From the NCBI GenBank assembly GCA_017463365.1, contig JAFTPH010000039.1, positions 1-43,777 of the forward strand: a DNA stretch of 43,777 bases. Direction: 5' to 3'. A program made the translations under genes and the position numbers. Each line of letters starts with the position of its first letter. Positions within the stretch are counted from its first letter, which is position 1. The notes under the pieces were generated by a model, which was not told the DNA's origin, searched no databases, and saw nothing but the letters and a program-made list of their open reading frames with translations. Shown in pieces: positions 12,701 through 43,362 of this stretch. The DNA is from Bacilli bacterium (lineage in GTDB: Bacteria > Bacillota_I > Bacilli_A > ML615J-28 > CAG-313).

Positions 12701-12777
12701 TCTATTTCAAAAATAAAAAACAAGAAAAACAAGAAGAAGCTCCTGCTGAAGAAACTAAAGAAGAAACTCAAGAATAA
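703..12777 (+). CDS. Giant (4,024 aa) secreted membrane-anchored protein with two SGNH-like regions, a helical repeat stalk and Cys-rich repeats
   Basis: Residues 1-33 are a signal peptide (hydrophobic core, VSA before the cut). The first SGNH/GDSL-hydrolase-like region has GDS with Ser46, a GSGNSNFG block near 226-233 and HPNENGH near 926-932. It is very long because about 600 mostly helical residues are inserted. Residues ~950-3145 are almost unbroken Ala/Glu/Lys/Val helix with recurring EAVAY(V/I)KA and EYAETAY motifs, nearly without Pro or Cys. A second SGNH region follows: GDS at Ser3159, GANNFG at 3250-3255, LHPSTLGH at 3450-3457. Then come Cys-rich repeats (~3480-3960), a membrane helix (~3975-4003) and a charged tail. 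It should sit outside the cell on a long stalk, held by the membrane helix; no LPXTG is seen. Esterase activity is uncertain because the usual Asp three before the catalytic His is missing in both regions. The ATG is supported by GGAGG. Confidence 0.9.
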   Translation: MKRQNVRIFRSFVALVTLLCAIVGMASVLYVSADSNTLNYVSLGDSMTNGFGLDGYDDLHKGEGYYEYTNGYKDYGYEAYPNQFAEYLATLDQNGDGEKDIVNHSQLAMSAMRIEDLNFLLHFDYNNPEQVAFVKDADKDNWSKGVEAEWNKLFAYGDRWTLSEFVNDYRFHQWYRGETDENSVSFLMGKTAANYQSLADVQANPTPAFAYEMQEAVKDADIISIGSGNSNFGVFLLGRIMNCIGFGGGSIEYDAWIDFDRALDSLNGEYASHTKTIVSQIQTTIKEQLNSLSAAGLPTETVEALYNAMAYTVVSYLVNYVQATDRIMALKASNKDVTKQDVELIYVGLMNTLNGFIVELNVDGAKKTIDLGVYMDKALTLANTYIASYATLQQLLGNELYATSTFYVAEADDVECLISSFEKDITSKDNVIRDRFITEIVGEKGNGMIWGLLAPVINGSGDESGMFEKLLGSNADLLALELVPVTLADVEAYEKFVASGNNDYTKTELTGSKMLSCAMYLAFEKAVIEGSKHSVISLDAFLNLGNLGGVFNGVMGELGNLDLSAVADVKDQLMTILFADIYEKVVVPNLAENWKTTNSPLKVEVGGTVVPNITITYEEAILAFADSLIPEGKENDVDEKAKALATAEMYIGIMAYIHENIKAIDLTVAGTMEGGKASLDLSGVSDKMLDIVQTNLTPLGEDYFEVIITEDLIYAWRDQVALVNPGDDEVIKQQKYKEWLESNEITIDLSKAFSAITTTNGTVEGLKVTCSYDKLEAVLKDLGITVDSSYNVWHLAYAVIKLGQKLNGDIPENVLGAENGIPIKDASGKISFSVALTGYKNVCEDGLFNNYANEVLGIEGVYGTDFNTMDIAKRYVGITYGGKLAMSAIGKNLTDVLSGALTSDDTLMGLLHLFGRCLIGNGLGVHPNENGHDTLYQAMVNAYENKITAQKYTIEKATNVLLIMQSYIEEYADELYEYGYQYADSKGYIDAVKNKVAELKAVLQEIKEWVENADIDGRVKDKILTLIQTAENALNKIINILANDLASTIAGLKAEIKGLLESVDRTIERIIALAERVANDTFTALTNKLNEINNKLHDIVNKVIVTSKEFAEQVKQIILAELLEAKGDLKAALASAKAKVKLFLEETTEKLTAAAKELYTEIVNQILAEVEALVDYAEAKFEALESKLAYIKEQLDAAVDKAIETVEVKYAELKQALVEIKAEIKAALAEVKELSEQAYAEIMAAAEEAIAKALLVAGKAKEIAEFAKEVAAIIIAELEAAPGKIEEALAAAKVKVEAYVKEVIAETDAALAELYQDVANYVYAVYEEAVAYAKGKYQEAKDILACIKEQVKDVVAEAVAYAEQKYMDLQAVVEEVKAAVKAAIQAAEDKIADAEALVEQIKAEAKQALADALAAIEEKWLEAKSQAEQMKAELAKALAVVKAESVELYNQLMEKVNGVVDFAGQTAETIEQMFAYAEEIKAIIIEELNNAKGDLKAALADAKAKVEEMVAGATAEAKAVVKAIADKVIAKVEEAVAYAEATYVDVKEAVAYVKAELAKAVEEAKQAVKEVIAFVQEVEAILEEAAEKAQSAKEYADLVIAKIEALAQEASETVKALAQEIITEIKEAAEYAEDVYADAVEAVAYVKATVKAKLVEIKAEVEAFVEQVEAVVTAKLESAENALKEAAINAKAKLEQLVADAKEAKELVKAIVNKVVAALDKAVEYATNTYEGLKEAVAYVEAEIAKAIEEVKAEVAELKEFASEVKAIITKLADSTGDAIEAAKQAVAEIKELAKDANEYAKLLAAKVVEELEAAIEYAQNAFEDATQAAEYIKGLVVRLINAVDTLVAETEELIDQLDSIFGQFVDIKDTINNALEAAKAAVDELISGAGEAAEIAKYVAAVMFKLVEEGVKALIETSTSLTEVLEAVVELVEAAAKTVTDINDLLAQFINKLDEIVAGLAEASGDVKEAVEQAIAQIEALIAEVKETLPTALAEIFETLAQKVISILREAAESCETIKEVLDYVKPLVKEAIDNLVEFVKNHYQDPVAILEYVRAEVKAALEALKLLSDELYNEVSSLVDSAFNAIKNAITNAEELKAFAEKVIAVILEELRNAGEDLEAAWECAKDKVYQLLADAIKGLPEELAARYQEVVEAIVKAVDDAVKYADGFLTSVQTKVNYIKAELKEAINEAIACIKEKYLDAKQTILDYKAQISEALAKAEFMTNELYGQLMDVVDEVFDKAIAGVESAKEIVKFVDQVKDIIIAELQNNVTSLQAALEAAKAKVEALVAEAGEYAEIVAVIAEQIIAKVEEAVAYAEAHYEDIKEAVAYVEAKLAEAVAEAKAAVEKAMEFVKQVEAIIDEIAENADDVQAAVEEAIAKIEALVAEAGEYAELVKAIAEKVIATLKEAAEYAETAYADAKEAVAYIKATAKEALAEIKAEVEAFVEQVKAAIECKIECVTNALQAALQEVKAEVEALVAEASQAAKAVVDQIMAEVEAAIEYAEETYANIVDAVAYVEAKLEEIADEALVVLEEVVKFLEQVDVILAEVAEKAETAKEYVELAIPQIEALVAKAGEYAEVIAKVAEQVIAQIKAAAEYAETAYADAKEAIAYIKAEAEKELAKLSEEFLVVLEKVVIALEQFDVIMNEVEAKFEVAEEKVKELIAKAEEYAEIYGPVAEEIIAAVKEVIDFAVEAYGPTKEAVEYIISVLPEVVEAVKETYIAVKPVVEQITEALNKAIEVIKDHPEEVKAIINAVAEGVTTIIENADEIVEFIKQVQVIIEEAIENAKDLPEAIAQAKAEVEALIAQAKAEIKAELEAIAEQIFAKVEEAVDFVEGVYGDALDAIEKIEAEYLELKAAIAQTKAEIEEALAEIKATASDVYNEIMAEVNKVVDFVEQTSEYAKEVIEYAKEVKAIIIAEIEAAPENLEKALEAAKEKVEALLAEAVEGVTEEIAALYNQVTEQIFKQVEIAIQYAEGVYNDTVEAVEYVINEVVTAVEEVIAEIEAAYLDVVANVEYIINNVETIIADALEQMYENRVEIIIAVDKALLELAEVIDDVVVEILSTYNDITNGIKEVITSLEAHLPVEEILAKFDEVSEMVEDFIVDCGEIASDALKEYQKISAFVKAVIKRVLAVETVEHYSPNADSFYVALGDSLVNGTGMEAATYSYLLAEALELDLNTQYAQLGVNGIRTNDLYYILNPEAVVDQYYLDNVEPIIAELGGMDVVRAEIVDAIVKADLITLQVGANNFGNYLVNQLMNYFLGAETYEMDWDAFTGYDLTDLMTVLKAEFADDLLAYAGLEVSEEEQEMLEDILDIVIFSYLDYAVNLEYTMQAIRAYNEDAYIVLTGTYNPFRDVYYDDGTGRVEVGQMIDQVVATIDTYLVQLGADEENCVYVEIPETQMLIDEMIEFGFVSTNLAEEMEIPGYEVPVPPYLVYAMMDSYVWLHPSTLGHEYIRDQILGVISHEINEEIWETDENGHWHACADCEEKFDYADHTFEWVIDSNPTTTDYGYKHEECTVCGYTRNENTPWGELVHECVPGTTWTTDATGHWHACSGCDVKHDFASHTFEWVVDQEAQEGVPGTKHEECTVCGYIQNEGTEIPALDHVHKPGTTWTTDATGHWHACSGCSEKLDFASHTFDWVVDQEAQVGVPGTKHEECTVCGYIQNEGTEIPALPNVHVHDLKYIPAKQSTCKERGHDAYYYCEGCDKYFVDSTASVETTPEKELRPLGGHTGGKATCSEKAVCVVCGRSYGFYGKHNLEYVEEVPATHKSEGIASHYKCKDCGKLFGAEGTELTEKDLVLDKIPHEGTGEWLSDETGHWHNCECGEKVDFAKHTFEWVVDKEPTTTEAGTKHEECTVCGYKQNEGTTIPATGHTHQMTKVPAKQATCEEDGNNEYYYCEDCGKYYKDANGVTETTPDAEKVKATGHTWGEWTVVTEATYDAPGLEERVCSCGEKETREIPQLVKEGLPVWAIILIVLGSLAVLGGAGYAAWFFYFKNKKQEKQEEAPAEETKEETQE
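3580..10120 (+). repeat. About 2,200-residue Ala/Glu/Lys helical repeat tract inside the giant gene
   Basis: Diverged protein-level repeats rather than identical DNA copies. Segments such as YADAKEAVAYIKA and AEVEALVAEAGEYAE recur roughly every 80-110 residues. Codon choice is narrow (GCT/GCA, GAA, AAA dominate). Amphipathic periodicity suggests a coiled coil or apolipoprotein/LEA-like long helix. The antisense strand therefore shows long low-complexity open frames that are not genes. Confidence 0.85.
11150..12500 (+). repeat. Cys-pair repeats (four of one kind, two of another) near the C-terminus of the giant protein
   Basis: Four copies of a ~55-residue unit begin with GHWH followed by CxxC or CxC (third-copy opening: GHWHACSGC) and end with KHEECTVCGY plus N-E-x-T. 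They lie near 11150-11310, 11340-11520, 11570-11745 and 12170-12335. Copies 2 and 3 are nearly identical in DNA, indicating recent duplication. Two copies of another unit (PAK-x-x-TC ... YYYCE-x-C) lie near 11770-11890 and 12360-12480. The paired CxxC motifs could bind zinc or form disulfides outside the cell. Such repeats are common in surface proteins of gut Firmicutes. Confidence 0.85.
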
Positions 12778-26548: not shown

Positions 26549-27424
26549 ATGAAAGATCCAAAAACCATTGAACAACAAGTTCAAATTTTAATAGATAGGG
26601 GATTAATTGTTAGAGATATTGAATTTGCAAAAGAATTTTTAAATCAAGTAAATTATTATAGATTTAGTGGATATTTAAAACTATTTTCTGTTAATGATAA
26701 GTTCAATGTGAACACAACTTTTGAAAAAATTGTAGAAGTTTATAATTTTGATTGTGAGTTAAGAAAATTACTTTATATTTATTTAGGATACATAGAAGTT
26801 TTAATTAAAACGCAACTTGCACTTAATTTATCTTTAAACATTAATGCAATATTCTATTTAGACAAAAACAATTTTTTAGATGAAGATAGATTTAATAGTC
26901 TTCAAAATGATATAAATGATAGTATTACAAGAAAATATTCAAAAGAACCATTTATTAAACATTTTCAAGGTGATTATTTACCTATATGGGTTTTAGTTGA
27001 AATAATGTCATTTGGAAATATTTCTATGATGTATGCTAACTTAATTGATAGTAATAAAGATTTGCTTTGTAATGGTTACTTAAATATTAATAAAGAATAC
27101 TTAAAGAATTATTTATACGTTTTATCAAATTTAAGAAATGCATGTGCTCATCAAGGACGAATTTATGGAAAAGAATTTGAACTTGCTCCTAAAATTTCTA
27201 AAAAAGATAAAAAAACGTTAATAGCTAATAATATTAGCGTATCTAATAGTAATCACAAATTATTTATTTATATTTTTATAATGATTAAATTAATTAAAAA
27301 TAATAATCAAAAAGATATGATGATAAACGAATTAAAATTATTATTTAATAGGTATTCAGATATTGAAATAGAAAAAATCGGATTTGTTAATAATTGGAAA
27401 AGTATATTAAATAGTATTAAATAG
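26549..27424 (+). CDS. AbiF/AbiD-family HEPN protein (Abi_2)
   Basis: It matches the Abi_2 family from end to end: KTIEQQVQILIDRGLIV, NQVNYYRFSGYLKLF, then the HEPN RNase-like active site R-N-A-C-A-H (LRNACAHQGRIYGKEF, about 205-220). HEPN proteins with R-x(4-6)-H cleave RNA, and AbiF members give abortive phage defence. The start follows GGGGGT by nine bases and is 23 bases after the upstream structured RNA. The gene is flanked by two copies of that RNA. Length (291) is typical for the family. The toxic activity and its control by the RNA are inferred from the family. Confidence 0.88.
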   Translation: MKDPKTIEQQVQILIDRGLIVRDIEFAKEFLNQVNYYRFSGYLKLFSVNDKFNVNTTFEKIVEVYNFDCELRKLLYIYLGYIEVLIKTQLALNLSLNINAIFYLDKNNFLDEDRFNSLQNDINDSITRKYSKEPFIKHFQGDYLPIWVLVEIMSFGNISMMYANLIDSNKDLLCNGYLNINKEYLKNYLYVLSNLRNACAHQGRIYGKEFELAPKISKKDKKTLIANNISVSNSNHKLFIYIFIMIKLIKNNNQKDMMINELKLLFNRYSDIEIEKIGFVNNWKSILNSIK

Positions 27425-28054: not shown

Positions 28055-29410
28055 ATGTTATTCAGAAAAGCGTATAAAGACATAAAAAAATGGTTTGATT
28101 CTACTAATAAAAATGCTTTATTAATTGATGGAGCAAGACAAATTGGAAAAACTTATCTTATTAGAGAATTTTTAAAAAATAATGCTCAGTCGTATATTGA
28201 ATTTAATTTATATGAAAATGATTTAGCTAAGCAAGCATTTGAAACAATTAATAATGCTAAAGAATTATTAATTAAAATTAGCGCTCTTGCTACAAGTCCT
28301 TTAATAAAAGGAGAAACTATTATCTTCATAGATGAAGTGCAAGCTGCAAGCGATGTTGTTACAAAAGTAAAATTTCTAATTGAAGAAGGTTCATATAGAT
28401 ATATTTTTAGTGGATCACTACTTGGAATTAGTTATAAAAATATTGATTCTTTACCTGTTGGTTATCTAGATATATTAGAAATGTATCCTCTAGATTTTGA
28501 AGAATTTTGTATTGCAAATGGTGTTTCAAATGATACTATTAATTATTTAGAAAAACAATTTAAAGATTTAATTCCAATTGATGATATAGTGCATAAGCAA
28601 ATGATTAACTTATTTAATTTATATACCATTGTTGGCGGATTTCCAGAAGTGGTAGCTAAGTTTATAGAAACTTTTAATTTACAAGATGTTTATTATTTAC
28701 ATGAATCAATTGATAAATTATATAAACTTGATATTTCTAAATATACCCAAGAAAAAACTTTATTAGTAAAAGATATTTATTCTTTAATTCCTAGTGAATT
28801 AAATAATCCTAATAAAAGATTTATATTAAAAAACTTAAATGAAAAAGGCAGATTTTATCAATATGAAGATTCTTTTGTGTGGTTATTAAATAGTAATATA
28901 GGTTTATTTACATATAATGTGGATAATCCTATTTATCCATTACTTGCTAGTAAAGAAAGAACATTATTTAAATTATTTTTATGTGATACTGGACTGCTAT
29001 GTCATTATCTATATAGTGATAATGTGGTTAGAATCTTAAATAATGATATAAATGTTAATTATGGATCAATATATGAAAATGTAGTGGCACAAGAGCTCAA
29101 ATCTCATAATTATAATTTATTTTATTATAATAGTAAAAAAAATGGCGAAGTAGATTTTATAATTGAAAATGGTACAGAAGTTCTACCTATTGAGGTAAAG
29201 TCTGGTAAAGATTATAAGAGACATGTAGCATTAGAAAATTTATTAAATAATGACTCTTACAATATAAATAAAGCATATACATTGTGCCAAGGTAACATAG
29301 AATCTATTAATAATAGAATATATTTACCAATTTATATGATTATGTTTTTTAATAGTAAAAAAGATGTAGATAGTCAAATTGTAAACATTGATATTAGTGC
29401 TTTAAAATAA
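28055..29410 (+). CDS. AAA_14/DUF4143 ATPase
   Basis: Walker A is GARQIGKT (26-33) and Walker B is TIIFIDEVQ (88-96). GSLLGI follows as sensor, and YPLDFEEF and GGFPEVV are typical of AAA_14 proteins. The C-terminal half is the DUF4143 domain, with GEVDFII (about 371) and PIEVKSGK (about 383-390), the D...E-x-K arrangement of PD-(D/E)xK nucleases. These proteins are widespread in anaerobes and of uncertain role; some are suspected to be selfish or defence-linked. The start is supported by GAGGTGA. It is flanked by two decayed copies of an unknown gene, suggesting insertion or shuffling. Its own terminator follows. Confidence 0.88.
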   Translation: MLFRKAYKDIKKWFDSTNKNALLIDGARQIGKTYLIREFLKNNAQSYIEFNLYENDLAKQAFETINNAKELLIKISALATSPLIKGETIIFIDEVQAASDVVTKVKFLIEEGSYRYIFSGSLLGISYKNIDSLPVGYLDILEMYPLDFEEFCIANGVSNDTINYLEKQFKDLIPIDDIVHKQMINLFNLYTIVGGFPEVVAKFIETFNLQDVYYLHESIDKLYKLDISKYTQEKTLLVKDIYSLIPSELNNPNKRFILKNLNEKGRFYQYEDSFVWLLNSNIGLFTYNVDNPIYPLLASKERTLFKLFLCDTGLLCHYLYSDNVVRILNNDINVNYGSIYENVVAQELKSHNYNLFYYNSKKNGEVDFIIENGTEVLPIEVKSGKDYKRHVALENLLNNDSYNINKAYTLCQGNIESINNRIYLPIYMIMFFNSKKDVDSQIVNIDISALK

Positions 29411-30828: not shown

Positions 30829-31800
30829 ATGAATAGAGAGAGATATTTCAATTACGTTAAAAGAAAATTAATTTATTTGTCCGAAAATATTAAAGTTTCT
30901 GGAAAATTAAATCTCTTATCACAAAATATTTATTGTGAAACATTTTATTGTGATTTGTTAAATATAGTTTTTGATTGGAAACTAAAAAATCTAAATACAA
31001 ATATTAACAATTATGCTGCAATTGATTTAATAGATCATGAAAATAATATTGTAGCACAAGTATCTTCGCAAAGCAATAAACAAAAAATTGAAGACTCTCT
31101 ATCTAAAGATATTATAAAAAAATATAATTCTTATACATATTATTTTATATGTATTGTAACTGCTAATAAAAAAATATCAACTCAAGATATAAAAAATCCG
31201 CATAAAATTAAATTTGATATCGATAGTAATTATATTGATGTTAATAAGCTATTAAGCATAATATGTAAACTTGATATTGATCATTTAAAAAATGTTTATG
31301 ATTTAGTAACGAAAGAATTAGGTAATATAGATTATAAAAAAATTAGTTCTGATTTGGCAGAGATAGTTTCTATGATAGATGTTAATATAGAAAATTCACC
31401 TACTGATTTAAGTATTTTAAATGAATATCAAATTGATAAAAAGATTGTACATAATTCTTTGAATGATATGAAAGAATTTATTCATGAAAAAGCAGAATTT
31501 TATGGTTATTTAAATACAATATATCGTACATATTTTGAACAAGGAAAAAATAAAGAAAGAATAGTATTATCTAAAGTGTCATCTATTTACATTAAAGAAA
31601 AACAAAAATTTAATTCTTCAATTGATCTGTATTTTAAAATTTTCAATGAAGTAGAAGAATATATAAAGAATAGTTTAAATTATAATAGTGAAATTACTGA
31701 AGATAATTTAGAACTTTGTATTCATATAATTTTAGTTGATGCTTTTATTAAATGTAAAATTTTTGAGAGTCCGGAGGATTATTATTATGTTAATGCCTAA
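30829..31800 (+). CDS. ABC-3C system protein with N-terminal SMEK domain
   Basis: Residues ~1-95 match the SMEK domain. The segments are YFNYVKRKLIYLSENIKVSG, CDLLNIVFDWKLKNLNT, then AAIDLIDHENNIVAQVSSQS with KQKIEDSL. In the known family this is followed by helical and C-terminal segments that associate with a small middle component and an ABC ATPase. That is exactly the order of the next two genes. ABC-3C systems were proposed from genome analysis as biological-conflict systems in which the ATPase senses an invader and licenses an effector. The effector activity of SMEK proteins is unproven. The ribosome site is AAAAGGAG. The end overlaps the next gene by 14 bases. Confidence 0.75.
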   Translation: MNRERYFNYVKRKLIYLSENIKVSGKLNLLSQNIYCETFYCDLLNIVFDWKLKNLNTNINNYAAIDLIDHENNIVAQVSSQSNKQKIEDSLSKDIIKKYNSYTYYFICIVTANKKISTQDIKNPHKIKFDIDSNYIDVNKLLSIICKLDIDHLKNVYDLVTKELGNIDYKKISSDLAEIVSMIDVNIENSPTDLSILNEYQIDKKIVHNSLNDMKEFIHEKAEFYGYLNTIYRTYFEQGKNKERIVLSKVSSIYIKEKQKFNSSIDLYFKIFNEVEEYIKNSLNYNSEITEDNLELCIHIILVDAFIKCKIFESPEDYYYVNA

Positions 31801-32014
31801 TAATATAAAACCCGAACTGTCTATTTATTATAATGGTTATTTAGTTTTAAAATACTTGAAAGAAATCAAAAAAATTAAAATCAGTGACTTATACATTATG
31901 ATGTTTCAATTGTATAAAATGTCTTATAAGGTTTTGGTTTTTACATTGGATTGGTTGTATTTGATTGATGCTATAGATTTTTGTGATAGTGAGGAAATTA
32001 CTTTATGTATATAA
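31787..32014 (+). CDS. ABC-3C middle component
   Basis: A 75-residue protein between the SMEK gene and the DUF2326 ATPase. That is the position and size of the small middle components of ABC-3C systems. Its pattern is one helix pair with KISDLYIMMFQLYKMSY followed by LDWLYLIDAIDF, like the MC6-type segment. No catalytic residues are seen; a bridging role between the ATPase and the effector is inferred from the family. The ATG at 31787 follows GGAGGA by eight bases; a longer frame starting at 31736 lies inside the preceding gene. It overlaps the ATPase gene by 10 bases. Confidence 0.7.
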   Translation: MLMPNNIKPELSIYYNGYLVLKYLKEIKKIKISDLYIMMFQLYKMSYKVLVFTLDWLYLIDAIDFCDSEEITLCI

Positions 32015-33726
32015 AAAAATTAATAATTAAAAACGATGAAGGAATAATTAGAGAATTAAACTTTTCAAGTGGCTTAAATTTCATTGTTGATAATACACCT
32101 TTTGATGAAAAAGGGACGGCAACTGGGAATAATATAGGAAAGACTACTGTTCTTCGATTAATTAATTATTGTTTTGGTAGTGATGGAAAAGATATATATT
32201 CTGATAGCGATTCTGGTGGTGATGTCTATGCAGAAATTAAAGATTTTTTAATTAACACAAATGTATTTGTTGAATTAACTTTAGTTGATAGTCTTGATAA
32301 ACCAGATAAGGTTGTCACAATTGAAAGAAATTTTTTATTACGTAATAAAGCGGTTATTAATATTAATGGTACGCCATGTGAAAAAGTTCTTTTTGAAGCA
32401 AAATTAAAATCACTACTTTTTCCTGATTTAGAAGATGAACGACCTACATTAAAACAGTTAGTAGCTCATAATATAAGATATAAGGATGAGGCTATAAATA
32501 ATATAATTAAGCATATTAATAAATATACTACAAATTTAGAATATGAAACTTTATTTTTGTATATGTTTAATTGTAAAATTGATAGTGCAAAAAAAAGAGA
32601 AGATGCGTCTGAGAAGTTGAAACAAGAAATTAATTTTAAGAAAAAATTGGAGCATAATGAAACTTTAAGTGGATATGAAGCAAAATTGTCATCAATAAAA
32701 ACTGAAATAATTAAACTAGAAGAAATTAAAAATAATCTAAATATCAATGAGAATTTTTCAGAAGATGTTAATAATCTAAATAAAGTTAAATATGATATTA
32801 GCAAATTAACAAATGAAATTTCTAATTTAAATATTAGGAAAAATTTGATTAACGAGTCTATTGATTTATTGGAAAAAGATAAAAGTGATATAGATTTAGA
32901 TGAAATTAAAAGTTTATATTCTGAAGTTTGTACATTAAATATTAATATTAATATTAATAAAACATTTGAAGCATTAGTGAATTTTCATAATAGAATGGTT
33001 GAGAATAAAAAAGATTTTATTAATGGTGATTTACCAATGATAGAAAATTTATTAAAAGAAAAAAATGTTTTATTATCTGAGTTGTTATTAGTAGAAAAAG
33101 AACTAACTTTAAAAATTTCAAAAAGTGATTCCTTTGAGACTTTAAATTCTATAATTAGTAAATTAAATTATCAATATGAAGAGAAAGGAAAATGTGAAAA
33201 TATTATTTCTCAAATTATTGAATCAAATAATCAAATTAATTTATATGCTACTGAAGTTGAAAGCTATGAAAAAGATATGTATTCTGATGAATCCTATAAT
33301 AATATTAAAAATTATATTAATAAATTTAATGAATGTTTTGCAAAGATTTCTGAATATTTGTATTCAGAAAAATATTTATTAAAAGTTGATATGGATTATG
33401 ATAAAAAGGCAAATAAAAAATTTTATAAATTTTCAACATTTAATGCGAATATAGGTTCTGGAAAAAAACAAGGTGAAATATTAGCTTTTGATTTAGCTTA
33501 TATAGAATTTGCAGATAAGTATAATGTTAATTGTATGCACTTTTTATTAAATGATAAGAAAGAATTAATGCATAGCAATCAACTAATAAAACTAAGCCAA
33601 TATTTAATTGATAAAAAAACACAAGTTATAATTCCTATTTTAAAAGACAAATTACCTGAGTGTTTAAAAAAGCAACAATACTATTTAATAGAACTTAACC
33701 AAGATTCAAAATTATTTAAAATTTAA
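32005..33726 (+). CDS. ABC-3C ATPase with DUF2326 domain (SbcC/SMC-like)
   Basis: The N-terminus is an SMC/RecN-like head, LNFIVDNTPFDEKGTATGNN leading into Walker A GNNIGKTT (41-48) and NYCFGSDGKD. Residues ~190-460 are a long coiled coil rich in Lys, Glu and Asn. The C-terminal DUF2326 part has GSGKKQGEILAFDLAYIEFA and HFLLNDKKELMHSNQL, the signature and Walker B-like head. ATPases of this kind bind DNA or nucleoprotein and drive the ABC-3C complex. The gene overlaps the middle component by 10 bases. The next gene starts 13 bases after its stop, with the ribosome site AAGAGG beginning in the stop codon, so the deaminase is in the same operon. Confidence 0.82.
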   Translation: MYIKKLIIKNDEGIIRELNFSSGLNFIVDNTPFDEKGTATGNNIGKTTVLRLINYCFGSDGKDIYSDSDSGGDVYAEIKDFLINTNVFVELTLVDSLDKPDKVVTIERNFLLRNKAVININGTPCEKVLFEAKLKSLLFPDLEDERPTLKQLVAHNIRYKDEAINNIIKHINKYTTNLEYETLFLYMFNCKIDSAKKREDASEKLKQEINFKKKLEHNETLSGYEAKLSSIKTEIIKLEEIKNNLNINENFSEDVNNLNKVKYDISKLTNEISNLNIRKNLINESIDLLEKDKSDIDLDEIKSLYSEVCTLNINININKTFEALVNFHNRMVENKKDFINGDLPMIENLLKEKNVLLSELLLVEKELTLKISKSDSFETLNSIISKLNYQYEEKGKCENIISQIIESNNQINLYATEVESYEKDMYSDESYNNIKNYINKFNECFAKISEYLYSEKYLLKVDMDYDKKANKKFYKFSTFNANIGSGKKQGEILAFDLAYIEFADKYNVNCMHFLLNDKKELMHSNQLIKLSQYLIDKKTQVIIPILKDKLPECLKKQQYYLIELNQDSKLFKI

Positions 33727-33739
33727 AGAGGTATATATA

Positions 33740-36052
33740 ATGATTAAATGTTATGATGATTGTATAAAAAATATATATAGTAATAAAAAAATAGTTATTG
33801 GCTTAACTGGTAAAACTGGATCAGGATGCTCGACAGTTGCAAAGCTACTTAGCTACAATGACTTTAAGAAATTTAAATTTAAAAAGATTAATCAGTATGG
33901 TTTTTCTTTAGAAGAAGAAAAAAAACACAAAATTATTTTAGATTATTTATCAAAGGATTCTATATGGAAAGGATTTAGAATAATAAAAGTAAGTAATTTA
34001 ATTATAGATTTTATAATATCAAAGGATTCAGCAGAATTTGAAAAGTATGTAAAAAATTGTTTGAAACAGAATAAAACGAATGAATCTGATTATATCTCAA
34101 TATCTGATTATGAGTCGTTCATATCAAATATAAAAAAAATTATTGATGAAGGACATATAATCTATAATCATTATCATGATGATTCAGGAATGATTATAAA
34201 AGATTTAAGTGATGAGTATTATTTTGATAAACTACAAGAAATTTCTGAAAAAAGTAAATCTGAACTTGTTAAATATAATATTACAGTGCGTGTTGAAGGT
34301 AAAAATGTCAAATCAAATTGTTATTATTACTTATTACAAAAAATTGGGAATAATATTAGGGCATCAGGTGAACCATATAGTAATATATTTAGTGGTAACC
34401 ATTTCTCAATAATAGCATCTAAAATTAAGGAAATTATTGATAATTATCAAGATGATTCAGCTAGATTTTGTATTGATGCAATAAGAAATCAGTTTGAAGC
34501 AACGTATTTGAAGGAACATTGTAGTAACTTTTATTTAGTATCTGTTAATACAGAAGAGAAAAGTAGAAGAGAGAGATTACAATCCTTAATGACTTTAGAA
34601 ATGTATGACAGTTTAAATTATATAGAATATCCAAAGAAGAAAAATTCTATCGAAGAAACATTTTATCATCAAAATATTCAAAAGTGTTTAGAAATCACAG
34701 ATATTCATTTATATAATGGAAATGACAATGTTAGAGAATTGCATAATTTAACTATTCAAATATTGAAGTATATTGGATTAATATTACACCCTGGACTTAT
34801 TACACCAAATAAAATAGAAAGATGTATGCAAATAGCTTATGAGGCTAGAATTAATTCAGGATGTTTATCTAGAAAAGTTGGAGCTGTAATAACTGATGAA
34901 AACTATATGGTCAAATCTATTGGTTGGAATGAAGTGCCTAGTTGCCAAATGCCGTGTAATCTTCGTACATTTAATGATTTGATTAGTTCGGATAAAAATT
35001 GCTTTAGCGAATTTGAATTACAAGATGAAAAATTTAGAGAATTATGCAAAAGTATTAATGATATGATACCTCATGATAAACTAATTGGTTTACCTTATTC
35101 ATATTGTTTTAAAGATATTTTCAATTATTTAAATAAATCAAATAATCAAGTTCATACAAGGGCATTACATGCAGAAGAAAATGCTTTTTTAAACATTTCT
35201 AAATATGGAGGTATTGGTTTAAAGGGAGGAAATTTGTTTGTTACTGCTAGTCCCTGTGAGTTATGTGCAAAAAAATCATACCAATTTGGTATTAAAAATA
35301 TCTATTATATAGATCCGTACCCTGGAATTTCAAAGAATCATATTCTTAAATTTAATGAGGAGCATGATCCACAAATGATTTTATATTCTGGTGCAATAGG
35401 TTCAGCTTATCTAAATTTGTATATGCCTAAGATATCAATGAAGGATGAATTAGAGCTAATTACCGGGATTAATCATAAAAATATAAAATTTCCAATAACT
35501 GATTCATTTGATATTGAATGTGAAGAAGTAAGATTAATTATTAAAAACGATGCATATGTATATCAACGTATAATAGAAGGAATTGTAACATCTCAAACAT
35601 TAAAAAAAATTGATAGACAGATTTTATTTATCAACGCAAAAACAAAGAATTGGAAAAGATTAAAAGGCGAAGGGTACAATGAATGTGAATTTAAGTTTAT
35701 TGATATGGGATTAGAGTCTATACAGAGATTTGTTTTTTCTAATAAACTTCGTGTCGGAGAGACGTTTAAAATTGGTTTAGAAGTTGAAATAACTGATGCG
35801 TTTTCAATGGATAAATTTTTACTAAATAAAATAATTAACAAGACAAATAAATTAATTTTAAAAATAATTAACCAAAGAGACAGTGAATTAATCGCTGTAT
35901 CTTCAAAGATATTTAATGATGAAAAAAGAGTGAATAAAGTAATTGATATACCAGTAGCATGTGAAAAAAATCCTAGTAATAATATTACTGAATATTATTC
36001 TGAATTTAATTACCCAAGTAAAGACTATTTTTATGAAATCGACTGGGAATAA
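33740..36052 (+). CDS. AvcD-like antiphage deoxycytidylate deaminase with P-loop domain
   Basis: Residues ~15-330 are a P-loop NTPase-like domain with GLTGKTGSGCST (21-32); the Walker A lysine position is Cys30. Residues ~360-580 are a zinc nucleotide deaminase: HAE at 477-479 supplies the zinc His and catalytic Glu, and PCELC at 505-509 gives two zinc Cys. This two-domain layout is that of AvcD/dCTP-deaminase defence proteins, which drain dCTP/dCMP during phage attack. A further ~190 C-terminal residues, without a recognised family, make the protein longer (770) than the usual ~530-residue AvcD. It shares the ABC-3C operon. AvcD is normally held by an RNA antitoxin; a short transcript starts just downstream. 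Confidence 0.85.
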   Translation: MIKCYDDCIKNIYSNKKIVIGLTGKTGSGCSTVAKLLSYNDFKKFKFKKINQYGFSLEEEKKHKIILDYLSKDSIWKGFRIIKVSNLIIDFIISKDSAEFEKYVKNCLKQNKTNESDYISISDYESFISNIKKIIDEGHIIYNHYHDDSGMIIKDLSDEYYFDKLQEISEKSKSELVKYNITVRVEGKNVKSNCYYYLLQKIGNNIRASGEPYSNIFSGNHFSIIASKIKEIIDNYQDDSARFCIDAIRNQFEATYLKEHCSNFYLVSVNTEEKSRRERLQSLMTLEMYDSLNYIEYPKKKNSIEETFYHQNIQKCLEITDIHLYNGNDNVRELHNLTIQILKYIGLILHPGLITPNKIERCMQIAYEARINSGCLSRKVGAVITDENYMVKSIGWNEVPSCQMPCNLRTFNDLISSDKNCFSEFELQDEKFRELCKSINDMIPHDKLIGLPYSYCFKDIFNYLNKSNNQVHTRALHAEENAFLNISKYGGIGLKGGNLFVTASPCELCAKKSYQFGIKNIYYIDPYPGISKNHILKFNEEHDPQMILYSGAIGSAYLNLYMPKISMKDELELITGINHKNIKFPITDSFDIECEEVRLIIKNDAYVYQRIIEGIVTSQTLKKIDRQILFINAKTKNWKRLKGEGYNECEFKFIDMGLESIQRFVFSNKLRVGETFKIGLEVEITDAFSMDKFLLNKIINKTNKLILKIINQRDSELIAVSSKIFNDEKRVNKVIDIPVACEKNPSNNITEYYSEFNYPSKDYFYEIDWE

Positions 36053-36102: not shown

Positions 36103-36252
36103 GAAATAAATATGGAGTGTGTGGTTATGATAGTTTGTTAGGTTTAAATAATAAAGTAAAGAATGATACTATTGTGTTAAATAGTAATAGTAAAAAAAAG
36201 AAAAAATGAAGAAAACTGCGTTGCAAATCTAGAATATGTAACGCAGTTTTAA
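36103..36252 (+). ncRNA. Candidate ~150-nt transcript between the deaminase and GP88-like genes
   Basis: It is bounded by a near-consensus promoter and a hairpin (AAAACTGCGTT, 36212-36222, with AACGCAGTTTT, 36240-36250). Inside, GGAG precedes ATG at 36127, but that frame stops after four codons. The neighbouring frame reads DSLLGLNNKVKNDTIVLNSN and a run of Lys before TGA at about 36206-36208. A single base missing after the ATG would explain this, so it may be a small broken gene. Alternatively it is a non-coding RNA; AvcD proteins are known to be paired with a small RNA antitoxin. Position rather than sequence supports that idea. Confidence 0.45.
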
Positions 36253-36364: not shown

Positions 36365-37129
36365 ATGCTATATAAACGACCATTTGTTACTGAAGAAAAA
36401 AGAGTAAACAGAAAAAAAATTATGAATGACAGATGCAGAAATAATGATTTTGAGTATAACCGTGATTATATGAGTGATATTCCAAATGGACTAGAATCCG
36501 GAAATAAAAAAACACTAGATTCAGGAACTAATTATGATAAAATATTTATTTGGAATATGCCTTATGTAAGTACGTGTCCCGGAATGACAAAATGGTGCAT
36601 TAATAATTGCTATAATGCTGATAATAGAGAAGATGTTTACCCTATTAAACAATGGATTAGAAATTTGCATGATTTTTTATATCAAAAAGAGAAATTGTAT
36701 GAAGTTATTTGCAATCAAATTTCATTATTTAAAGGGCAAAAAGTAGCAATTAGATTTCACTCTTCAGGGGACTTTTTTTCTGTTGAATACATTGATTTTT
36801 GGATTAAAATAGCAAAAAGATTTCCAAGTGTCCATTTTTGGGGATATACAAGATCGTGGAGCGTTAGCAGTTTAAGAGAAAAAATTATTGAGTTAAACTC
36901 ATTGGGAAATGTTACATTGTTTGCATCGGTCGATGATTTTTCACAAATAGACAAATTTGAACAGCTAAATAAAAGCTTTGTTTTAGAAAAGGAAAATTTT
37001 GAAAAAATTATTAATAATTCTAACTATTTTATTTGCCCAGAACAAATAAGACTAACGAATGGATGTGCTGATTGTGGAAATTGCATAACTAATAAAGCAA
37101 AGAAAGATATAGTTTTTATAGTGCATTAA
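36365..37129 (+). CDS. GP88-like Cys-motif protein
   Basis: STCPGMTKWCINNCYNAD (about 69-86) gives C-x6-C-x3-C. The middle has VAIRFHSSGDFFSVEYIDFW with FWGYTRSW, and the C-terminus CPEQIRLTNGCADCGNC has four more Cys. These are the features of the phage/plasmid gene-product-88 family. The Cys arrangement suggests an iron-sulfur or radical-SAM-like enzyme, but that is inference; the reaction is not known. The ATG at 36365 follows AAGGAG by nine bases; an upstream in-frame ATG at 36314 is at the predicted transcription start (TATAAT 36304-36309). First gene of a four-gene operon (next start 15 bases after its stop). Confidence 0.7.
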   Translation: MLYKRPFVTEEKRVNRKKIMNDRCRNNDFEYNRDYMSDIPNGLESGNKKTLDSGTNYDKIFIWNMPYVSTCPGMTKWCINNCYNADNREDVYPIKQWIRNLHDFLYQKEKLYEVICNQISLFKGQKVAIRFHSSGDFFSVEYIDFWIKIAKRFPSVHFWGYTRSWSVSSLREKIIELNSLGNVTLFASVDDFSQIDKFEQLNKSFVLEKENFEKIINNSNYFICPEQIRLTNGCADCGNCITNKAKKDIVFIVH

Positions 37130-37143
37130 TCAAAGGAGGAAAA

Positions 37144-38388
37144 ATGAATAAAGGATATTTAATTTTAGTCGGTGGAAGTAGCGGTTCAGGAAAAACATTG
37201 CTCATAAATCATATAATAGAAAATTATAATAACTATGTGCGACCTATTTCTTATACTACTAGAGAAAAAAGAAAAGATGAAAATAATAACGAATATGTGT
37301 TTATAAGTAAGGAACAATTTTCAATATTTAAAGAATTAAATTATCTTTATAACATTGATTTTGTGTATGAAAATTATTATGCTATGGATAAAAATTCAAT
37401 TGATTATTATATAAATAGAGGATATAATGTTATAAAAGAGATTCACCCAGAAAATCAAAAAAAAATAAAAAATGAGGGTACATATAATTGCATAAGAATT
37501 TTAATAGAATCAAATATAACAACAAAAGCAGAGAGAAAAGAAGACATTGAATATTATAAGGTTTTATCAAAAAATGAATTTGATATTATTGTTAATAATT
37601 GTAATTCTGAAAATATTTCCACTATTGCTAAATATGTCATACATAAAATAGAAAATGTTTTAAAATATTATGATGTTTTTCCATCGGGCGGAGAGATTGA
37701 TGTCGTAAATAATAATGGGTATAATAAAATAGCTAAATATTTTGATGATGAGAAACGTATTACAACTAAAAATTTTCATGATATGTCATATTCTTTCTTT
37801 AAGAATATAATTGAATCTAATCTTTTGAATAATAAGAGTGTACTAGAGATCGGATCCGGCAGGGGATGGTTGAGAAATAATTTTACTTGGAATAAGACTA
37901 CTAGTTATACTTCTGTTGATATATCAGAAGAGATGAACAATATGATACCAGTGGAAAAAACTACTACAAAAAGTGCAAGAAATCTCCCTTTTAGCTGTGA
38001 ATCTTTCGATGCTGTTATATGCTCTTTAGCTGATCCATTTTTTTACCCAGAAGCTATTTCAGAAATCTTTAGAGTTTTAAAACAAAAAGGTTTACTGATT
38101 TTTAGTATACCTACAAAAGAATGGTCTTCTTCTATTAGGATGGATGATATATATACTTATTTCTTATTACCAGATGGTCAACTTGCTAAGGTTTACTCAT
38201 TTACATTTTTTGAAAATGAATTAAAATCAATACTTAAGAGTGTAGGATTTGAAATTGAATTATTTTTAAAAATTGGAATAAATAACTTAATTTCAAAGGA
38301 TATTTCACCTGTGATTAAAGATGCGATTAATAATACAATGAATAACGAACTGCCAATTATATTTTGTGTTAAATGTTATAAGGAGTAG
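37144..38388 (+). CDS. Fusion of guanylate-kinase-like domain and SAM-dependent methyltransferase
   Basis: Residues ~1-170 resemble guanylate kinase: P-loop GGSSGSGKT (10-18), then the GMP-binding block RPISYTTREKRKDE (33-46) and EYVFIS. Residues ~190-410 are a class I methyltransferase: motif I VLEIGSGRGW (233-242), VDISEEM, the SFDAVICSLADPFFYPEA segment and FRVLKQKGLLIFSIP, as in small-molecule methyltransferases. Family facts do not say what is modified; a nucleotide or its derivative is a natural guess, because the kinase half should bind a nucleoside monophosphate. The later conserved Arg and Asp of the kinase lid are not obvious, so it may bind rather than phosphorylate. AAAGGAGG precedes the ATG. 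The next gene follows after two bases. Confidence 0.82.
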   Translation: MNKGYLILVGGSSGSGKTLLINHIIENYNNYVRPISYTTREKRKDENNNEYVFISKEQFSIFKELNYLYNIDFVYENYYAMDKNSIDYYINRGYNVIKEIHPENQKKIKNEGTYNCIRILIESNITTKAERKEDIEYYKVLSKNEFDIIVNNCNSENISTIAKYVIHKIENVLKYYDVFPSGGEIDVVNNNGYNKIAKYFDDEKRITTKNFHDMSYSFFKNIIESNLLNNKSVLEIGSGRGWLRNNFTWNKTTSYTSVDISEEMNNMIPVEKTTTKSARNLPFSCESFDAVICSLADPFFYPEAISEIFRVLKQKGLLIFSIPTKEWSSSIRMDDIYTYFLLPDGQLAKVYSFTFFENELKSILKSVGFEIELFLKIGINNLISKDISPVIKDAINNTMNNELPIIFCVKCYKE

Positions 38389-38390
38389 CT

Positions 38391-39137
38391 ATGGAAAAAA
38401 AAATAATCCTAAAAAAAGTATACAAGATAATGGATTTATATAAAAAAGGATTACTAGGCGGAGATATTATGCCAGAAGATAAGAATCCCCATCTAAATAA
38501 TGATTATGAAATGAATCTGATTTATTTTACACTACCAATGGCTTTAAATTATCAAAGAAATTCATATAAACTGTGGGAAGCAGCTCTATCGTCGTATAAT
38601 GACGAGTATATAAAAGATATTTTCGATTTAAATAAAGTTGTAAGTATGGACAATAGTTTATTGAAGCAAAAACTATTGAAATACAAATTAGCGCTTCAAC
38701 CTAATAAACACACTGAAATATGGAAAAAACTTTGTTGTACTTTTTTTGAAAGATTTAATGGTAAAATTTCTAATTTCTTAACTGAATTTGACTATGATAT
38801 TGAACAAATAAAAACATTTATACAAAAAAATAAAAAAATGTTCCCATATTTATCAGGAAAAAAAATATGTAATTATTGGCTTTATGTTTTGGAGCAATAT
38901 GTCTCAATAAAGTTTAAAAATAGAAAATTTATAAATGTTGCCCCTGATACACATATTATTCAATCAAGTTTGAAATTAGGATTAATATCGAAAGAAGAGT
39001 TTCAGAGTAATAATGTCGCAGATATTGTAATTGAGCGATGGCAAGAACTTTTAATTGATGAAGATATAGAACCGATTGATGTGCATACACCTTTATGGTT
39101 GTGGAGTAGGGGAGGATTTCAAATCGATGTACAATAA
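38391..39137 (+). CDS. HhH-GPD (DNA N-glycosylase)-like protein
   Basis: FPYLSGKKICNYWLYVLEQY (151-170) resembles the helix-hairpin-helix of the glycosylase superfamily. APDTHIIQSSLKLGLI (184-199) places Asp186 where EndoIII/MutY-type enzymes have their catalytic Asp (V-D-T-H). LPMALNYQRNSYKLWEAAL and KLALQPNKHTEIW are strongly patterned, as in a conserved family, but I cannot name it. No Cys4 iron-sulfur cluster is present at the end. It may recognise or act on a modified base; that is inference. Its ribosome site AAGGAG lies in the preceding stop region. It overlaps the next gene by 11 bases. Confidence 0.6.
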   Translation: MEKKIILKKVYKIMDLYKKGLLGGDIMPEDKNPHLNNDYEMNLIYFTLPMALNYQRNSYKLWEAALSSYNDEYIKDIFDLNKVVSMDNSLLKQKLLKYKLALQPNKHTEIWKKLCCTFFERFNGKISNFLTEFDYDIEQIKTFIQKNKKMFPYLSGKKICNYWLYVLEQYVSIKFKNRKFINVAPDTHIIQSSLKLGLISKEEFQSNNVADIVIERWQELLIDEDIEPIDVHTPLWLWSRGGFQIDVQ

Positions 39138-40179
39138 ATTTAAAATTGGTTTTATATTCAATGATGAATATATTAACTTTATTGAAAAAATTAATAACAG
39201 TAGTGTTCATAAAATAGTAGAAGTTTATGGTTCGATTAGAGAACTCAGCTATCTATCTGCTAGACCTAAAGACAGAGTTCCGGACATTTCTCGAGACGAG
39301 TTTAAGAAATATTTAAATAAGTTAAAAGATATATCAGTTGATTTTAATTATACTTTAAACTCAACTGATATTGGAAGTAAAGAAGATATATTTAAAAATA
39401 CCGAGGAAATTAAAGAATTTATAAAGTTTTTAATTGATGCTGGTGTTAAAATTTTTACTATATCATTGCCTATATTGGCTAAGTTTATAAGGGAAATTAG
39501 CTCTAGCGTTCAAATTGAATTAAGTACAATAATTAAACTTGAATCTGTTTCACAAATAACTATATGGAAAAAAATTTTTAACATTTCTAGAGTTTGTATG
39601 AATATTTCTAAGAATAGAGAAATTCTTTTTTTAGAAAGAGCTATGGATTATTGCAAAAAAGAAGATATTGATGTTAACTTAATAGTGAATGAATTCTGTG
39701 GTAATGGGGTTGATAATATATGTACAACATCAGGGTGTATATATAGAGATCATTGTTATTCACTGCACTCAAAAGATTATACATCAAATGATAGTGATAA
39801 TTTAGATGGTTATCCTTTTAGTTATTGCTCTAAACTTAGAAATGATGAATTAATATGGCTAAAACTAAATTTTATTAGGCCTGAGGATTTAAAAATGTAT
39901 AATAAAATAGGAATAAACTTTTTTAAGATTACAGGTAGAACTGGTACCATTCAATATATGGAAAAAATAGTAAATGCTTATATGACTCAAAGATGGGATG
40001 GAACTTTACAGGAATTATGGTTTAATCAAATATATAATTCTAAAAAAATTAATATAAAAAATTCAAATTTAGAGGGATTTATAAACTATTGGTTTGAGAA
40101 TAAAAATCATTTGTGTTCTAATAATGTCTGTGGTGTAACATGTAAGTACTGTAATTCTTTTTTTGAAAAAATCATTTAA
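39127..40179 (+). CDS. Peptidase U32-family (iron-sulfur hydroxylase-like) protein
   Basis: The U32 signature appears as FFKITGRTG (266-273; family consensus L-K-I-E-G-R). Before it lies a Cys-rich block at 191, 199, 204, 210 and 234, in the place where UbiU/UbiV, RlhA and TrhP bind a 4Fe-4S cluster. The N-terminal ~190 residues fit the TIM-barrel (TISLPILAKFI, IELSTIIKLES). A second Cys cluster (C-x4-C-x3-C-x2-C) closes the protein. Studied U32 proteins hydroxylate RNA bases or ubiquinone using prephenate and oxygen or other routes, not peptides. The ATG at 39127 follows GGGGAGG by 11 bases; frames before it lie within the previous gene. Last gene of the operon. Confidence 0.72.
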   Translation: MYNKFKIGFIFNDEYINFIEKINNSSVHKIVEVYGSIRELSYLSARPKDRVPDISRDEFKKYLNKLKDISVDFNYTLNSTDIGSKEDIFKNTEEIKEFIKFLIDAGVKIFTISLPILAKFIREISSSVQIELSTIIKLESVSQITIWKKIFNISRVCMNISKNREILFLERAMDYCKKEDIDVNLIVNEFCGNGVDNICTTSGCIYRDHCYSLHSKDYTSNDSDNLDGYPFSYCSKLRNDELIWLKLNFIRPEDLKMYNKIGINFFKITGRTGTIQYMEKIVNAYMTQRWDGTLQELWFNQIYNSKKINIKNSNLEGFINYWFENKNHLCSNNVCGVTCKYCNSFFEKII

Positions 40180-40206
40180 AAGATACTAATGAGCTGAGAT
40201 TATTTG

Positions 40207-40242
40207 GTTATAACTAATTATAAATTAGTTATAACTTTTTTT
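40207..40242 (+). terminator. Terminator of the four-gene operon
   Basis: GTTATAACTAAT (40207-40218) pairs with ATTAGTTATAAC (40224-40235), then T7. Confidence 0.85.
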
Positions 40243-40815
40243 ATTCTTCAAAATGATTTGATGTTTTTGGTTGACTTTTATATTAATTACAAAAGGGTAG
40301 TATTTTAATTGCAAAACTTAGGATAGGTAACCATAAAGTAAAGCGGTTTTACTAAAAAACAATAAAATTTTTACTAATTTTTTTTAAAAAACTATAACGT
40401 ATAAATTTATAATAATCATGCTTCTTGATTTATATTGTAATTTAATTACTTTCTATATTTATGTGAGTATTATTCTCTAGTTAAAAGCATAGCGGATAGA
40501 TTAAACTAGTATTCAAATAAATTACTGAGAGACCGCTATGAATGTTTTAAATCTAAAAATAAAATGTAAGATATTAGTTGCCTTTTAGTAATAGATATAA
40601 CAAAACATACAAAATTATGTTAGTTATATTTGACAAAACAATTATTATATTGTATAACGTCATTAAAAGTTTGAAAAATATAGGTAACAAAGTTTTTAAA
40701 TTTTTATTAAATATAATATTACTATCTTCTTTTCCATTATGTTTTATTATTGATTAAATGTAATAACTATGATAAAATGTTGATGTAGAAAATTTTATAA
40801 TAGAGGTATTTAAAT
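40243..40815. other. Gene-poor region with promoters and a stem-loop
   Basis: No credible gene in 570 bases. CATAGCGG (40488-40495) and CCGCTATG (40533-40540) can form an 8-bp stem round a 37-base loop that contains part of another inverted pair (CTAGTT/AACTAG). Two promoter-like pairs follow: TTGACA-N17-TATAAC (40630-40658) and TTGATT-N17-TAAAAT (40750-40778). The second is well placed for the small gene at 40816. The first has no gene of its own. Confidence 0.45.
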
Positions 40816-40992
40816 ATGTTTAATATAAATTTATCAATATATAAAGAAAGCAAGCAATATTTTCAATTAAATGATGATTTTTATGTTTGTGAAGTCAATT
40901 CAAATGCATATGTTACTGGTTTTGAGAAATATACTAGAATTAAAATTGCAAAACATTATGTGAAATATATATTAAGTGAAATTTATGGATAA
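40816..40992 (+). CDS. Small 58-aa protein copying the N-terminus of the downstream regulator
   Basis: MFNINLSIYKESKQYFQ matches MFKINLSIYKESKQYFQ, the first 17 residues of the regulator at 42244, with one change. The DNA match covers about 50 bases. The remaining 41 residues (LNDDFYVCEVNSNAYVTGFE, TRIKIAKHYVKYILSE) are unrelated to it. The promoter TTGATT-N17-TAAAAT at 40750-40778 and AGAGG nine bases before the ATG support expression. It is either a truncated and re-fused copy, left by recombination, or a small protein that competes with the regulator. No function is known. Confidence 0.5.
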   Translation: MFNINLSIYKESKQYFQLNDDFYVCEVNSNAYVTGFEKYTRIKIAKHYVKYILSEIYG

Positions 40993-42243: not shown

Positions 42244-43362
42244 ATGTTTAAAATTAATCTATCCATATATAAAGAAAGCAAACAATATTTTCAAATATTT
42301 GATATTTTATTAAAAGACTTAAATATAAATAAGGAAGCATTCTTAAAAGATGTAGGTATTTCTCCAAGTTCATATAGAAAAGCAAGAACTATTGAACAAA
42401 ACATTGGTGATAAGATTATAGATCAATTATGTAATGCGTTGGGATATAAAAAAGCATCAACTATATTTATTACCGAAGTGGAAGAATTATTTAACAGAAT
42501 ATATTTTAATATGTACTATAAAATTTTCAAGCATTTTGATAAAGATTTAGAAACAATTAATAATTTAATTGAACAAAACTATATAATTAAACCTATATTA
42601 ATATTATTAAAACTATTCTTGTTAGCAAATGCAAAAATTGATACGTGGGAATATAAAGAAAAAAACTTAAATTTATATAACGAAATAAAAAAATATCTAA
42701 TATTTTTTAATGAGGATTTATTAGAAATCGTGGATATTTTAGCGCTTACATTTGAATCAAGTATTCCAGAAGAAATCATGATGAAGACATATAAAAATAG
42801 TTTAGCTTATTATTCTTTATCATCTAGGTTATGCAATGATGAACGTTATGTTGAAAGTCTATTTATTGCAAAAAAAGCAGAAGATGTTTTAGTTAGAGAA
42901 AAAAATTATAAAAGGTTGTTATATTTAAATGTAAAAATGATGCATTGTCTTAATTCTATTCATAGTTACCAAGAATGTTTTGATTTGGCTTCTATGCAAT
43001 TATTAACATTACAATCTTTTGTAGAGACAGAATATGAATATAATCATACTATCAAAAATTTAGCAATATGTTGTTTGCCGTTAGGTAAATATAAATATAT
43101 ATCTGATTTGATTCTAGAACAGCAAAATATTTCATTGACTGAATTATGTTGTTTACTCGTTGCAAAGTATAAAGTAGATACTGTTGAATATGAAAAATTA
43201 TACAAATCATATTATGAAATGATGACAAATTCAGGAAAAAGCAATCTAGAAGTAATTAATAATTTCTTGAAAAATGATGAAAGAAAGATATTAAATAAGC
43301 TTGATATCGGAATTTTGACTGAAATTGTTGTTTCAGCATTAAAAAGAACGCAAATAAGTTGA
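42244..43362 (+). CDS. RRNPP-like regulator (N-terminal HTH, C-terminal TPR-like domain)
   Basis: Residues ~22-70 look like a Cro/C1-type helix-turn-helix (INKEAFLKDVGISPSSYRKA, then IIDQLCNALGYKKAS). Residues ~80-372 are an all-helical array with TPR-like pairs (YVESLFIAKKAEDVLVREKN, YLNVKMMHCLNSIHSYQECF, HTIKNLAICCLPLGKYKYI). Overall length and plan are those of Rgg, AimR, PlcR and related peptide-controlled regulators. Such regulators normally have a small secreted peptide encoded right after them; here a signal-peptide gene with repeats begins 175 bases downstream. The first 17 codons recur in the small gene at 40816. The ribosome site is AGGAG (42233-42237). The family is inferred from architecture. 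Confidence 0.68.
   Translation: MFKINLSIYKESKQYFQIFDILLKDLNINKEAFLKDVGISPSSYRKARTIEQNIGDKIIDQLCNALGYKKASTIFITEVEELFNRIYFNMYYKIFKHFDKDLETINNLIEQNYIIKPILILLKLFLLANAKIDTWEYKEKNLNLYNEIKKYLIFFNEDLLEIVDILALTFESSIPEEIMMKTYKNSLAYYSLSSRLCNDERYVESLFIAKKAEDVLVREKNYKRLLYLNVKMMHCLNSIHSYQECFDLASMQLLTLQSFVETEYEYNHTIKNLAICCLPLGKYKYISDLILEQQNISLTELCCLLVAKYKVDTVEYEKLYKSYYEMMTNSGKSNLEVINNFLKNDERKILNKLDIGILTEIVVSALKRTQIS

Follow-up and report, generated by a model that had tools for sequence, protein, structure and literature searches.

Known RNA-acting U32 proteins carry out C5 hydroxylation of pyrimidines: RlhA and TrhP form 5-hydroxycytidine (ho5C) and 5-hydroxyuridine (ho5U), and a U32 protein followed by S-adenosylmethionine (SAM)-dependent methylation gives 5-methoxyuridine (mo5U) (PMC6599085). 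A different U32 protein sits in the 5-hydroxydeoxycytidine (5-hydroxy-dC) locus of RB69-like phages (PMC8056088, PMC13390438). Here we describe an operon that encodes a U32 protein of this phage clade together with three other proteins: a GP88-family protein, a guanylate-kinase-like/methyltransferase fusion and a protein resembling helix-hairpin-helix (HhH) glycosylases. The operon lies in contig JAFTPH010000039.1 of a Bacilli bacterium (GCA_017463365.1), the whole of the analysed stretch (the window) being 43,777 nucleotides (nt) of its forward strand. We propose, at a probability of roughly 0.4, that it is a mobile nucleotide-modification cassette for a C5-oxygenated pyrimidine which probably acts in defence; its catalytic steps, substrate and defence role are what we infer from the evidence below.

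The four genes are arranged head to tail on the plus strand with intergenic spacings of +14, +2 and -11 nt, and are flanked by two hairpins:

36365..37129, plus strand, GP88-family protein (PF17338), 254 amino acids (aa), ATG start with AAGGAG immediately 5'
37144..38388, plus strand, guanylate-kinase-like/methyltransferase fusion, 414 aa
38391..39137, plus strand, HhH-glycosylase-like protein, 248 aa
39127..40179, plus strand, U32-family protein, 350 aa, ATG start
40206..40243, plus strand, intrinsic terminator of the operon, 14-pair stem and U run, minimum free energy -13.2, z-score -5.2
36212..36250, plus strand, terminator-like hairpin between the preceding dCTP deaminase gene and the operon, z-score -5.7

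These coordinates and spacings agree exactly with those of an earlier sequence-only reading of the window, which had claimed four tightly packed genes at 36365-40179 with gaps of 14 and 2 bases, an 11-base overlap and a single terminator. The upstream hairpin marks the operon as a separate transcription unit. The U32 gene probably starts at the ATG at 39127 and not at the mechanically called TTG, since both its phage and its operon homologues begin there.

When a U32 alignment was used to scan species genomes of bacteria and archaea, 11 loci were returned, a lower bound as the scan requires exact short peptide matches. All four genes were present in the same order and on the same strand in two of these 11, in Phocaeicola faecalis (L023, Bacteroidota) and in a metagenome-assembled genome (MAG) of candidate division BRC1 (L024). 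The window proteins were respectively 41 and 38% (GP88), 42 and 38% (fusion), 51 and 46% (HhH) and 44 and 39% (U32) identical to those of L023 and L024. All four were thus nearer to L023 than to L024, which fits a cassette inherited as a unit. Within each gene, conservation was highest at codon position 2 and lowest at position 3, and this pattern, together with the same order in two further phyla, indicates that the set did not come about by chance. The sequence-only reading had staked its case in advance on the four families co-occurring elsewhere, and this is what was found, with one gene order in three phyla.

The HhH protein was also used to query sampled genomes. Among 392 genomes of the window's own phylum, no full-length homologue was found beyond the window's own copy, and the remaining matches, short fragments with internal stops, were set aside. 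In samples of Bacteroidales and Bacteroidaceae (393 and 399 genomes), the known Phocaeicola was the sole genome with a full-length homologue, and among 391 Clostridia genomes there was one more. This sparse distribution suggests that the cassette is rare and patchy. Separately, Clostridia genome L045 carries a remnant of an HhH gene (1727-1974) in which an internal deletion joins residues 17-57 to 205-248. Viral contigs gave no match to the HhH protein, whether searched singly or as two alignments, or to the fusion protein, and the whole cassette therefore shows no sign of being a phage locus. In the viral contigs a single-sequence U32 query found nothing, whereas a U32 alignment did find U32 proteins. 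Plasmids gave no match to the U32 or fusion proteins and only distant haloarchaeal relatives of the HhH protein; an HhH relative is also carried on a Halalkalicoccus plasmid. A full-text literature search, of partial coverage, returned no description of the four-gene set. The four genes are a conserved, mobile and rare cassette whose function is undescribed.

The U32 protein matched PF01136 (9e-10, 38.6 bits, cut-off 22.4) and the phage family phrog_5757 (3e-86), and tblastn against phages returned 218 records at about 38% identity over 99% of its length. The records sampled were RB69-like and related T4-type phages (Mosigvirus, Thanatos, Serratia LC53, Proteus PM2 and others), and phages among these have been reported to contain arabinosyl-hydroxycytosine or pentosyl-cytosine DNA (PMC13390438, PMC12838424). 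In a tree of 20 rows, the operon and phage U32 proteins and one from a Lachnospiraceae MAG (L022) formed a single clade (support 98/97), with RlhA, TrhP and the remaining cellular U32 proteins outside it. C191 and C210 of the window protein aligned with RlhA C169 and C176, a Cys pair shown to be essential (PMC6599085), as part of an iron-sulfur (Fe-S) type Cys set, and K267, G270 and R271 aligned with the K-x-x-G-R motif of these enzymes. The host genome encodes further U32 proteins, as well as its own guanylate kinase, and a chorismate mutase domain that is a possible source of prephenate, which is no more than permissive for a prephenate-dependent C5 hydroxylation.

The phages have a small kinase-like gene close to the U32 gene: it is the next gene in Thanatos-2 and one gene away in a gut phage (L021). 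It is labelled 'thymidylate kinase' in several Klebsiella phages, with weak Pfam scores below the cut-off. We dropped the idea that U32 is itself the phage 5-hydroxy-dCMP synthase, as this activity has been credited to a thymidylate-synthase relative (PMC13390438); U32 is a co-occurring enzyme of the phage locus, and its tie to C5-oxygenated cytosine is contextual. No thymidylate-synthase-type gene was present among the operon genes or their scanned neighbours, or in the 49 kb gut phage fragment. Positions 5969-9074 of that fragment encode a U32 protein of this clade, a thymidylate-kinase-like protein, a dUTPase-2/MazG-like protein and a 329-aa protein of unknown family.

The fusion of kinase and methyltransferase is kept in all three operons. 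Its N-terminal domain (approximately residues 1-180) is a guanylate-kinase-like P-loop domain (TIGR03263, 2e-18; PF00625, 6.5e-12), and its C-terminal part (approximately 225-330) matched class I SAM methyltransferases (Methyltransf_11, PF08241, 3e-12). The kinase domain retains the P-loop G-K-T and the phosphate-binding residues S36, R40, R43 and Y79. The Glu of E. coli Gmk, which we take to be a guanine-pocket residue, is replaced by N, T and T in the three copies, an Asp is His in all three, and the lid is short. Retention of phosphate binding with loss of guanine recognition points to a nucleoside monophosphate (NMP) kinase that acts on a nucleotide with a different base. The class I domain of the methyltransferase half is generic, and O-methylation is suggested for it solely by the partnership with the U32 protein.

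No family profile significantly matched the HhH protein, and the Pfam HhH profiles were not reached; for one relative (L044) the AGOG profile gave 0.0014, below its cut-off. Its AlphaFold2 (AF2) model (three sequences) had a mean predicted local distance difference test (pLDDT) score of 79.5, and Foldseek placed it nearest to QNG1/DUF2419 (7e-4), followed by EndoIII (8e-3) and also MutY, MagIII and AGOG. The match to QNG1 was structural only, with no profile or PDB sequence match. K158 and D186 aligned with K120 and D138 of E. coli Nth (GxK...D) in five of five family members; we take these Nth residues to be catalytic. The assignment of this protein comes from its predicted fold and these residues, and it may be either a DNA glycosylase or a nucleotide N-glycosidase. 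It had been expected to be a base-recognising HhH protein; with the Lys/Asp pair, and with QNG1, a nucleotide N-glycosidase, as its nearest fold, it looks more like an enzyme than a protein of mere recognition.

The GP88 protein matched PF17338 (3e-24, 86.5 bits, cut-off 24.4). Seven Cys (C71-x6-C78-x3-C82 and C224...C234-x2-C237-x2-C240) are invariant, and this set of three plus four, with an R-x-H...GD motif, is unchanged across the three operons and three Streptomyces phage homologues. The pattern suggests one open and one complete Fe-S site, and GP88 is a probable Fe-S enzyme on the strength of its Cys arrangement. Its AF2 model was weak (pLDDT 62) and the fold search uninformative. Assignment as a radical SAM protein was not supported, the C-x6-C-x3-C spacing differing from the canonical C-x3-C-x2-C and the weak model giving no proof.

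Upstream of the operon, the window contains the following neighbours, all of them outside it:

26549-27424, AbiD-like gene, defence neighbour
28055-29410, PDC-S01, defence neighbour
30829..33726, plus strand, ABC-three-component defence pair, SMEK-CTD10 and then a DUF2326/LmuB-like ATPase, adjoining the dCTP deaminase gene
33740..36052, plus strand, anti-phage dCTP deaminase with an N-terminal kinase domain (PADLOC dCTPase, 4e-111)

The dCTP deaminase scored 340 bits (2e-101) against NF041025, whose cut-off is 400. These genes confirm the defence-rich region that had been claimed for the window. The BRC1 copy lies amid conjugation-like, primase, RadC and recombinase-like genes, as judged from open reading frames, with a CBASS set (SAVED-HNH effector, cyclase and E2) approximately 5 kb downstream of the cassette, and thus two of the three copies have a defence setting. 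Searched against PADLOC 2023, the operon proteins themselves matched no specific defence model, with generic matches only to the methyltransferase and P-loop part. Elsewhere in the window, the start of a helix-turn-helix (HTH)-type gene at 42244-43362 (MFKINLSIYKESKQYFQ) recurs as a truncated copy at 40817-40990, a duplication or recombination remnant, and 703-12777 is one open frame of 4024 aa, the first 999 residues of which have no Pfam match.

The route that we propose would begin with the U32 Fe-S protein hydroxylating a pyrimidine mononucleotide at C5, with GP88 perhaps supplying electrons or a radical step; the likeliest substrate would be a cytosine (deoxy)nucleotide. The methyltransferase half would cap the new hydroxyl to give a methoxy group, as in the conversion of ho5U to mo5U in tRNA, and the kinase half would phosphorylate the abnormal NMP so that it could enter the NTP or dNTP pool. 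The HhH glycosidase may excise the base, either at the level of the modified nucleotide or after its incorporation into DNA, for sanitation, self-protection or release of the free base. Given the defence-island setting, the product would most likely poison phage replication or transcription, following the logic, if not the enzymes, of viperin nucleotides. The sequence-only reading had pointed to a modified base or nucleotide. As a direction this is well supported by the co-occurrence, the placement of U32 with phages that have 5-hydroxycytosine, the kinase without guanine specificity and the retained glycosylase residues; the particular chemistry and product are putative. A bolder claim, that this is a new type of defence built on a phage-clade U32 protein, in which a C5-oxygenated (for example 5-methoxy) pyrimidine nucleotide is the antiviral poison and the system's own glycosidase the antidote or repair enzyme, we regard as rather doubtful.

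Several observations weigh against the proposed cassette function. The Glu essential in RlhA (E161) and TrhP (E162) falls in an alignment gap, and the residue varies among the operon copies. In Mosigvirus, it is the thymidylate-synthase relative and not U32 that is credited with 5-hydroxy-dCMP (PMC13390438), and such a relative was near U32 in five of five T4-like strabovirus genomes. GP88 has no assigned chemistry, and the substrate of the methyltransferase could be anything. The Phocaeicola copy had no obvious defence neighbours in the 17 kb of sequence covered. Finally, in the Lachnospiraceae MAG (L022:7022-11080) a U32 protein of this clade, the closest U32 relative of that in the window, follows a 981-aa HD-CE protein, with the three partner genes absent, which gives the clade a second setting.

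Of the other explanations, antimetabolite production or salvage survives best, and we consider it unlikely. Here U32, the methyltransferase and the kinase would modify a nucleotide, and the HhH protein would free the modified base or consume a scavenged nucleotide, much as QNG1 or the CMP hydrolases of nucleoside antibiotics do, the end product being a base and not an NTP. The nearest fold of the HhH protein is indeed a queuosine-5'-monophosphate glycosidase, and its lone relative in the Clostridia genome adjoins genes for a PnuC-like transporter, a dUTPase and an ECF transporter. However, an NMP kinase domain points to di- and triphosphates, the operon lacks a transporter or exporter, and two of three copies are in a defence island.

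It is improbable that the cassette serves a mobile element or prophage by hypermodifying the element's own DNA, in which a modified dNTP would evade restriction while the glycosylase removed the modified base or, elsewhere, the normal one. The nearest U32 relatives from outside the operons are found in phages with hypermodified cytosine, and the BRC1 copy is surrounded by conjugation, primase, RadC and recombinase-like genes. Nevertheless, nearby there were no polymerase, dCTPase, glycosyltransferase or structural genes, and the viral searches found no close counterpart of the HhH or fusion proteins.

Quite improbable, too, is an anti-phage effector in which the HhH DNA glycosylase attacks the modified bases of phages while its three partners supply a co-factor, mark or trigger. 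Its HhH fold with the EndoIII Lys/Asp pair would suit this role, as would the defence genes near the window and BRC1 copies, and antiviral DNA glycosylases are described (PMC11078745), but the HhH protein also stands alone in a metabolic setting, and three biosynthetic-looking genes would be superfluous. Modification of tRNA or rRNA, with U32 hydroxylating an RNA pyrimidine, the methyltransferase capping it and the kinase and HhH domains binding RNA or regulating, is very improbable: although RNA is the substrate of those U32 enzymes that have been characterised as acting on nucleic acids, and U32 plus a methyltransferase yields mo5U34 in B. subtilis (PMC6599085), the operon U32 falls outside the RlhA/TrhP branch, the host already has other U32 genes, and there would be no explanation for an NMP kinase or for a glycosylase whose catalytic residues are intact.

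If the nucleotide-modification cassette is what we propose, it would give bacteria a portable route, coupled to a glycosidase and located among anti-phage genes, to a kind of nucleotide whose examples known so far are 5-oxygenated cytosine in phage DNA and mo5U in tRNA. It would also hint at a function in arabinosyl-hydroxycytosine synthesis for the 'peptidase' RB69p050 family to which the 218 phage records belong.

Among known systems, bacimethrin and mildiomycin type pathways bring together a base-modified nucleotide, a glycosidase and a methyltransferase in one cluster. The combination of genes is like that of the operon, but the corresponding steps presumably fall to other enzyme families. 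Where prokaryotic viperins occur with nucleotide kinases, an Fe-S enzyme and a kinase together make an antiviral nucleotide; the logic is alike, but the operon has no viperin-type radical-SAM protein and the proposed chemistry differs, and membership of the viperins was rejected as the operon contains none. The HhH protein has the HhH-glycosylase-type architecture of the queuosine-5'-monophosphate N-ribohydrolase QNG1/DUF2419, its nearest fold, at approximately 10% identity and without a sequence-level match. It shares with the EndoIII/MutY/AGOG DNA glycosylases the aligned GxK...D catalytic pair, and unlike Nth it lacks the C-terminal Fe-S Cys motif. TrhP with its methyltransferase (ho5U to mo5U in B. 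subtilis) resembles the operon in having a U32 step whose new hydroxyl is then methylated from SAM, the order proposed here. It differs in its tRNA substrate, its branch of U32 and the absence of a kinase or glycosylase, and its methyltransferase is, we assume, of a different family. The RB69-like arabinosyl-5-hydroxycytosine locus of the Straboviridae has a thymidylate-synthase-type 5-hydroxy-dCMP synthase and sugar genes, neither of which is in the operon, whereas the operon has a methyltransferase, an HhH protein and GP88. The two nevertheless share a U32 protein of one clade (RB69p050, phrog_5757; full-length identity 37-39%), kinase-like coding capacity near it and, on the route proposed here for the operon, a C5-oxygenated cytosine at the nucleotide level; in the phages the kinase-like gene is a small one.

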